Assembly: GCA_002255955.1 (NCBI GenBank)
Contig: NKIM01000012.1
Coordinates: 1-64,000, forward strand
Length of the DNA: 64,000 nucleotides
Direction of reading: 5' to 3'
From: Burkholderiales bacterium PBB2
Lineage (GTDB): Bacteria > Pseudomonadota > Gammaproteobacteria > Burkholderiales > Burkholderiaceae_C
A program made the position numbers and the translations under genes. Each line of letters opens with the position of its first letter. The first letter of the stretch is position 1. This document shows, one piece after another, positions 219 to 1,810 of the stretch. The notes under the pieces are model-generated. The model was not told where the DNA came from. It made no database searches and was given only the letters and a program-made list of their open reading frames with translations.

Positions 219-1139
219 TCAGGCCGGAGTGAGTGCCTTGCGCATCTTCTTCATCGCCGCCACTTCGATCTGGCGGATGCGCTCGGCCGACACGCCGTAC
301 TCGGCCGCCAGCTCATGCAGGGTCATGCCACCGGACGAATCGTCGTTGACCTTGAGCCAGCGCTCCTCGACGATGCGGCGGCTGCGCTCGTCCAGGGCCT
401 CCAGTGCTCGGCTGATACCGTCGCCGGCCAGCTCGTCGCGGGCCTGGGCTTCCAGCACGCGGGTCGGTTCCTGACTGTCGTCGGCCAGGTAGGCGATGGG
501 AGCGAAACTCTCGCCGTCCTCGTCGCTTTGCGGCTCGAGCGCCACGTCGCCGCCGGACATGCGGGTTTCCATCTCCAGCACTTCTTCCGGCTTGACGTTC
601 AGCTCGCGCGCCACATGGGCCAGCTGCGCTTCGCTGAGGCTGTTGCGATGGGTTTGGTCGTCGGCCTGGTCTTCCTTCATGCTGTGCTTCATCGAGCGCA
701 GATTGAAGAACAGCTTGCGCTGGGCCTTGGTCGTGGCGACCTTGACCATGCGCCAGTTGCGCAGCACATACTCGTGGATCTCGGCCTTGATCCAATGCAT
801 GGCATAGCTGACCAGGCGTACGCCCTGGTCTGGGTCGTAGCGCTTGACGGCCTTCATCAGGCCGACATTGCCTTCCTGAATCAGGTCGCCCTGGGGCAGG
901 CCATAGCCCATGTACTGGCGCGAGATCGACACCACCAGGCGTAGGTGGGAGAGCACCAAGCGGCCGGCGGCCTCAAGATCACCACTGTCACGCAGACGGC
1001 GGGCGGCCGAGCTTTCCTCTTCCGGGGTCAGCAGGGGCAGGCGGTTGACGGCGGAGATGTATGCATCCAGGTTGCCGAGCGAGGGCACCAGCGACCAGGG
1101 GTCACGTACCGTCAGAGCAGTGGGTGTAGACAAAGTCAT
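219..1139 (-). CDS. rpoH: RNA polymerase heat-shock sigma factor RpoH (sigma-32)
   Basis: A 306-aa group 3 sigma-70 family protein that directs RNA polymerase to heat-shock promoters. Sigma region 2 spans about residues 55-130. The RpoH-specific box QRKLFFNLR at 140-148 separates it from RpoD/RpoS, and the C-terminal region 4.2 helix-turn-helix (about 270-302) ends the protein. The ORF track starts 12 codons upstream at 1175, but that ATG lies at the predicted transcription start. The ATG at 1139 has an AGAAAG ribosome site just upstream and gives the usual family length. A CIRCE operator covers the promoter (separate entries), implying HrcA control on top of the usual post-translational DnaK/FtsH control of sigma-32. 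Confidence 0.95.
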   Translation of the reverse strand: MTLSTPTALTVRDPWSLVPSLGNLDAYISAVNRLPLLTPEEESSAARRLRDSGDLEAAGRLVLSHLRLVVSISRQYMGYGLPQGDLIQEGNVGLMKAVKRYDPDQGVRLVSYAMHWIKAEIHEYVLRNWRMVKVATTKAQRKLFFNLRSMKHSMKEDQADDQTHRNSLSEAQLAHVARELNVKPEEVLEMETRMSGGDVALEPQSDEDGESFAPIAYLADDSQEPTRVLEAQARDELAGDGISRALEALDERSRRIVEERWLKVNDDSSGGMTLHELAAEYGVSAERIRQIEVAAMKKMRKALTPA

Positions 1140-1182
1140 CGCTTTCTTTCGCAAGCCGAACCTCAGCGGTTCCATGAGGTCA

Positions 1183-1212
1183 ATATTAGCACTCTCGTTT
1201 AGTGAGTGCCAA
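1183..1212 (-). promoter_or_regulatory. Predicted sigma-70 promoter of rpoH
   Basis: On the minus strand, TTGGCA (1207-1212) and TAATAT (1183-1188) are separated by 18 bp, giving five of six matches to each consensus hexamer. Predicted transcription start is near 1176, leaving a leader of about 37 nt before the rpoH ATG at 1139. Both hexamers overlap the two arms of the CIRCE element. Confidence 0.7.
1186..1212. promoter_or_regulatory. CIRCE operator (HrcA binding site) upstream of rpoH
   Basis: TTAGCACTC (1186-1194), nine spacer bases, GAGTGCCAA (1204-1212). This equals the CIRCE consensus TTAGCACTC-N9-GAGTGCTAA with a single mismatch. It overlaps both promoter hexamers of rpoH, the position from which HrcA represses groE and dnaK operons in other bacteria. 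HrcA itself is not in this window. Confidence 0.88.
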
Positions 1213-1300
1213 ATCGCTGGGGTTATTCGAGAAAGTGCATGAATATGCGCTTTTTGGTGAGTGCGCTCGCTAACTTATAGCGGCGCATCGCCGGCTTGCG

Positions 1301-1810
1301 TCAGTCCAGCAGGCCGAAATCTGGGCTGACGACCATGGTGTCGATGTCCAGCAGGATCAGCATGCGCTCGCCGATCTTGCCCAGACCGGTGATGAATCGG
1401 GCGTCCAGCGCCGCCGCCACCTCGGGCCGCGGCTTGATCTCATCGGCGCTGAGTTCCAGCACGTCGGAGACCGAGTCCACCACCACGCCGACGATGCGCT
1501 GCGCCACATTGAGCACGATCACCACGGTGAAGGCGTTGTACTCGCCGCTTTGGCCCAGGCGCATGCGCAGGTCGACGATGGGCACGATGACGCCGCGCAG
1601 ATTGACCACACCCTTGATGAAATCGGGCGAATGGGCGACGCGGGTGGGCGGCTCGTAGGAGCGGATTTCCTGCACGCGCAGGATGTCGATGCCGTATTCC
1701 TCGCCACCGATGCGGAAGGTCAGGAATTGCTGGGTGTCATGCCGGGCCTGGCCGGTGGCGGGCTGCAGGGCTTGGGCACCAGAGGAGGGAACCAGTTCGT
1801 TAGAGCTCAT
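1301..1810 (-). CDS. cheW: CheW-like chemotaxis coupling protein
   Basis: A 169-aa protein consisting of a single CheW domain (about residues 25-165) after a flexible N-terminus. The strings [31 protein letters not shown] and LLLDIDT are typical of CheW, the cytoplasmic adaptor linking methyl-accepting receptors to the CheA kinase. No cheA, cheY or receptor gene is adjacent, so this is a stand-alone copy. It could serve the flagellar chemosensory array or a separate one. It lies upstream of rpoH on the same strand, but rpoH has its own promoter. Confidence 0.9.

Follow-up and report, generated by a model that had tools for sequence, protein, structure and literature searches.

In the window analysed here, a 64,000-nucleotide stretch of DNA from Burkholderiales bacterium PBB2, a predicted CIRCE operator is superimposed on the promoter of rpoH, the gene for sigma-32. 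We propose that the repressor HrcA, stabilised by GroEL, would block RNA polymerase at this site and that heat would release rpoH together with groESL; we put the probability of this reading at about 0.87. The proposal is built on what was observed of the operator, the promoter, hrcA, the content of the regulon, the conservation of the site and its co-loss with hrcA. Judging from sequence, the sigma factor of this betaproteobacterium, like its chaperones, is probably under the control of the chaperonin-tuned repressor, and the comparison of genomes indicates that CIRCE at rpoH is an order-wide arrangement, shared by nearly all members that retain hrcA, not a local curiosity.

The CIRCE Operator and the Promoter Within It

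The layout of the rpoH region, in window coordinates, is as follows.

219–1139, minus strand: rpoH, sigma-32, 306 amino acid residues (TIGR02392, 394 bits, cut-off 323)
1142–1150, minus strand: ribosome binding site GAAAGAAAG, recognised by sequence
1158–1172, minus strand: small 5′ UTR hairpin (GAACC, a TCAGC loop on the plus strand, GGTTC), genus-level, with compensatory changes
1176, minus strand: expected transcript start, about 7 nt past the −10, placed from the promoter position
1183–1191, minus strand: extended −10, TG-C-TAATAT, with its first six bases in the promoter-proximal CIRCE arm and its last three outside
1186–1212, no strand: CIRCE operator (predicted HrcA binding site), 17/18 to consensus, conserved in congeners and in the order
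1207–1212, minus strand: −35 hexamer TTGGCA, within the promoter-distal CIRCE arm
1218–1228, minus strand: degenerate place of a sigma-E −35 (GGAACTT in other genera), located by comparison with relatives
1301–1810, minus strand: cheW-like gene, directly upstream of rpoH on the same strand, with possible read-through into rpoH

The predicted CIRCE reads TTAGCACTC-TCGTTTAGT-GAGTGCCAA. It agrees with the consensus, TTAGCACTC-N9-GAGTGCTAA, at 17 of 18 positions, so that the 9-N9-9 palindrome of an HrcA/CIRCE operator is present with the single mismatch that a preliminary description of this DNA had claimed, and it lies at the promoter of a heat-shock gene. The range given in that description, 1183–1212, stands as the span of the promoter hexamers, but the operator proper is 1186–1212. 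No other match with three or fewer mismatches occurs in the 64 kb window. None is expected there by chance, as 100 shuffles yielded no match.

On the minus strand, TTGGCA (1212–1207) is followed after 18 nt by TAATAT (1188–1183), which is preceded by TG. That is, the site has the TGnTAnnnT sequence of a sigma-70 extended −10 together with a −35-like hexamer within 16–18 nt upstream. The extended −10, TGCTAATAT, begins in the CIRCE arm. A promoter scan of positions 900–2400 found this pair as the sole sigma-70-type site, and the scan thus bears out the earlier claims that the arms coincide with TTGGCA and TAATAT and that this is the only good promoter before rpoH.

Among relatives, the −35 is TTGGCA, TTAGCA, CTGGCA or CTAGCA at 127 of 133 sites. 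In the aligned rpoH sites, the three bases after the promoter-proximal arm, GAGTGCTAA, are A or T, then A, then T. This last T, which completes the −10, is found at 131 of the 133 rpoH sites but at just 3 of 20 groESL CIRCE sites (P ~1e-17, a value that ignores relatedness, though the sites span many families). Since the completing T, the final base of TGnTAnnnT, lies outside the operator, selection for HrcA binding cannot account for it. The contrast between rpoH and groESL therefore argues that the superposition of promoter and operator has been selected.

hrcA and the CIRCE Regulon

The genome contains a single intact copy of hrcA, the cognate repressor gene (TIGR00331, 311 bits against a cut-off of 197; PF01628, E 2e-66). 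It adjoins a divergent NAD-kinase-like gene, away from rpoH. The hrcA locus, on contig C23, is without a CIRCE, so hrcA lacks the kind of autoregulation known in Bacillus, among others. A search of the assembly (5.48 Mb in 90 contigs) at three or fewer mismatches gave exactly three CIRCE sites, those of groESL-1, groESL-2 and rpoH, and the reversed control pattern gave no match across the whole assembly. Two of the checks proposed at the outset, for hrcA in the genome and for other CIRCE sites, were positive, the two further sites each preceding a groES gene.

In both groESL operons a sigma-32-like site (CTTGAAA-N13-CCTTAT and CTTGAAA-N12-CCCCTAT) lies a few bases before CIRCE. The operator and the repressor are the same at groESL and rpoH, but the arrangement differs, as follows. 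At groESL, CIRCE lies just downstream of the sigma-32 promoter, whereas at rpoH it contains the promoter. The groESL operons are on contigs C83 and C4, and an open reading frame resembling a DNA-binding protein lies ahead of the C83 copy.

Conservation and Co-Loss with hrcA

rpoH was located in 150 Burkholderiales genomes, and 147 upstream regions were compared with a threshold of four or fewer mismatches to CIRCE. The operator precedes rpoH in 133 of the 147, counts of genomes that are not independent events, and 103 of these 133 have 0 or 1 mismatch. All genomes with CIRCE at rpoH have hrcA. The gene is absent from 13 of the 14 genomes whose rpoH region is without CIRCE, and the remaining one, G083, has only a broken fragment. 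That is, the site is conserved with rpoH and lost with hrcA. Seven families contain genomes that have lost hrcA. In f4, f24 and f34, which are among the seven, genomes with both hrcA and CIRCE occur as well, and because loss and retention occur within these three, several of the co-losses are independent. In two hrcA-less genomes, G033 and G112, the palindrome has decayed and a sigma-E promoter remains, which argues that the palindrome is maintained for HrcA and not for the promoter.

Named relatives with enough upstream sequence have CIRCE before rpoH without exception (79/79); they include Roseateles, Paucibacter, Pelomonas, Rubrivivax, Sphaerotilus, Leptothrix, Ideonella, Variovorax and Simplicispira. 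Within the window's genus, the spacer and flanks have changed, and what persists is the operator with a −10 that reads TAATAT or TAACAT. The palindrome, whose conservation in relatives the preliminary description had listed as a check, is kept across the order and in every congener examined.

A Sigma-E Promoter Sharing the Operator in Relatives

Sigma-E promoters have the pattern GAACTT-N16-TCTNA, an example being E. coli rpoHP3. In the aligned rpoH profile, GGAACTT occupies positions −16 to −10, and TCA falls just inside the CIRCE spacer. A GGAACTT-like −35, 12–16 bp upstream of CIRCE, is found in 126 of 211 relatives, with a TC-starting −10 in register within the operator. When the −35 is at −16, TCTCA is at 7. 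When GGAACTT starts at −14, TC is at 9–10 in 15 of 15 sites, and when it starts at −12, TC is at 11–12 and A at 15 in 23 of 23, a group that is partly Variovorax and hence not independent, although several other genera also belong to it. CIRCE has a fixed TC at 7–8 that could mislead if position alone were used, and register is the decisive check. The occurrence of TC at otherwise variable spacer positions, in register with the −35, indicates that the whole sigma-E element shifts position along CIRCE. In a further 22 sites, with the −35 starting at −17, the spacer up to the fixed TC is 17 nt long. The hrcA-less genomes G033 and G112 keep GGAACTT/TGAACTT-N16-TCNTA, a natural separation of promoter from operator.

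In the window, the −16 register holds GAATAAC with TCACT in place of GGAACTT-N16-TCTNA, and a sigma-E promoter was rejected there after the −16, −14 and −12 registers had been checked. The −35 is gone throughout the genus. Since sister genera have it, its absence is a derived loss.

The rpoH homologue fam of Bordetella bronchiseptica is transcribed by SigE in vitro (PMC3490749). For Burkholderia pseudomallei, a review describes a heat-inducible rpoH promoter under the control of rpoE (PMC5994319). These reports, as examined here, make no mention of HrcA. In many relatives, GAACTT-N16-TCTNA is at the same place as in rpoHP3, fam and the B. pseudomallei rpoH, whereas the window's genus has lost such a promoter. 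We lean towards a broader proposal, that the sigma-E and sigma-70 promoters share their −10s with the HrcA operator in one compact rpoH module in Burkholderiales and some other Gammaproteobacteria, so that one repressor would gate both the envelope-stress and the housekeeping transcription of sigma-32. This module may be ancestral, with HrcA lost and the sigma-E promoter retained on the way to E. coli, and the window's genus would be a derived form without the sigma-E input. The composite sigma-E/sigma-70/CIRCE layout with its sliding register is new with respect to the literature examined, in which none was found. A movable sigma-E promoter over a fixed operator is a clear natural case of regulatory elements sharing bases.

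The Proposed Circuit

The steps that we infer at rpoH, from HrcA binding and repression through GroEL sensing to heat induction, would be as follows. HrcA on CIRCE would overlie both promoter hexamers, −35 and −10, and so exclude RNA polymerase. Free GroEL would keep HrcA folded and active, and rpoH transcription would be low. GroEL-dependent HrcA activity is established in other bacteria and is assumed for the window species. Upon heat or misfolding, unfolded protein would occupy GroEL, HrcA would become inactive, and rpoH and both groESL operons would be released together. Sigma-32 would then also drive groESL, making a coherent feed-forward loop, and accumulating GroEL would restore HrcA repression, the negative feedback that closes the loop. 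Given that the groESL promoters are of the sigma-32 type with CIRCE just downstream, HrcA would repress both the activator and its target. The rpoH operator would act only as DNA, since it is upstream of the expected start; the groESL CIRCE, downstream of the sigma-32 −10, may be transcribed.

Textbooks describe sigma-32 as regulated through translation and proteolysis, the protein itself being the target of DnaK and GroEL. An entire order, the Burkholderiales, appears to put sigma-32 transcription under a GroEL-tuned repressor that also governs groESL. The feed-forward and feedback circuit is testable in many cultivable genera of industrial and medical relevance.

The rpoH Leader and Upstream Region

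The rpoH start codon is most likely ATG 1139, with the ribosome binding site listed above. ATG 1175 was rejected as a start because only 8 nt separate it from the −10 and congeners do not share it. The leader would be about 37 nt long if transcription begins near 1176. The possible 5′ UTR hairpin lies between the −10 and the ribosome binding site and, in the window and its congeners, shows compensatory changes, for example GAACC/GGTTC, GAACG/CGTTC and AGGCCC/GGGCCT. Its covariation is moderate, with 4 pairs altered on both sides and most measures equalled by 3 to 10 of 500 shuffles. More distant relatives (loci L179–L181 and L197) have other strong hairpins at the same place. A known RNA thermometer family was sought in 600–1900 without an Rfam match. 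The folding energy of the leader is ordinary (z −0.12), and the ribosome binding site is largely unpaired, values that concern the leader, whereas structure of the E. coli type involves the coding region. Neither the Rfam search of 600–1900 nor the leader folding supports an RNA thermometer.

No terminator was found between the cheW-like gene and rpoH. A block of sequence, AAGTTAGYRRNC-RCMCTCG, at 1259–1276 is conserved in the genus, just past the cheW stop and about 50–65 bp upstream of CIRCE. It may be a regulator site or a second promoter. Read-through from cheW, or this block, could give HrcA-independent rpoH transcription.

Alternative Readings of the Site

The palindrome is one base off the consensus in one arm, as it might be if a strong promoter had given rise to it by chance or if it were the operator of another regulator. 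We give this virtually no credence, since the expected number of chance matches is zero, both 9-nt arms are conserved around a variable spacer, and the site is missing where hrcA is missing. A chance origin is rejected by the shuffles and by the reversed pattern with its 0 matches. It is also improbable that the window copy is primarily a sigma-E promoter of rpoH, like rpoHP3, with CIRCE as a gate through which HrcA integrates cytoplasmic folding with envelope stress. The GGAACTT-like −35s of the 126 relatives, with −10s sliding in register, would be so explained, and in Bordetella and B. pseudomallei, both of this order, sigma-E acts on rpoH (PMC3490749, PMC5994319). However, with the −35 gone in the window and its genus, this account applies to the relatives and not to the window copy.

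A possible, if rather doubtful, account is that HrcA does bind a genuine operator but only trims basal transcription, proteolysis, translation, read-through or another promoter being dominant. The tandem cheW-like gene with no terminator found after it, the genus-conserved upstream block and the established knowledge of E. coli sigma-32 all speak for it, and proteolysis or translation may still be the main control on sigma-32, with transcriptional repression minor. Against it, the site and hrcA are strictly conserved together throughout an order, which implies a selected effect, a single promoter-like site was found before rpoH in 900–2400, and neither the search for known thermometer families in 600–1900 nor the leader folding points to translational control by an RNA thermometer. 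We prefer repression of rpoH transcription by HrcA.

Wider Spread and Earlier Reports

In other Gammaproteobacteria (in the GTDB sense), CIRCE with two or fewer mismatches is present in 8 of 51 rpoH regions, and one more region has a degenerate copy (5 mismatches). Most of these CIRCE-bearing regions have GGAAC or a similar sequence upstream. In other classes of the phylum, CIRCE precedes rpoH in 1 of 18 regions, and this copy, which stands alone among those checked, has 1 mismatch. The wider spread fits an old arrangement lost with hrcA; convergent gain of CIRCE at rpoH could also have produced it.

The basic link between HrcA and rpoH may not be new. A 2003 paper by Permina and Gelfand reportedly covers the β-proteobacteria and is likely to name rpoH among the targets of HrcA; it may anticipate the link. 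Experimental HrcA control of rpoH in β-proteobacteria was not found in a literature search, whose reach did not extend to that paper. A sequence-based prediction for Geobacter sulfurreducens put a perfect CIRCE 51 nt ahead of the start of rpoH (Rodionov et al. 2004, PMC545781). The regulon described there resembles the present one in having groESL as the constant member, and both are sequence-only predictions. The two differ in that the earlier site belongs to a single δ-proteobacterium among several, whereas the present one is order-wide in Burkholderiales, its superposition on the promoter is backed by conservation, and the window genome has no CIRCE at hrcA or at further genes.

Variation in RpoH

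In the window's family, the RpoH model match extends over about 850 bases as against about 800, which indicates an insertion of about 15 residues, probably around MSGGDVALEPQSDEDGESFAPIAYL. Three genomes (G032, G076 and G080) have 10–15 RpoH-model matches instead of the usual 2–5, possibly expanded sigma-70 family paralogs.
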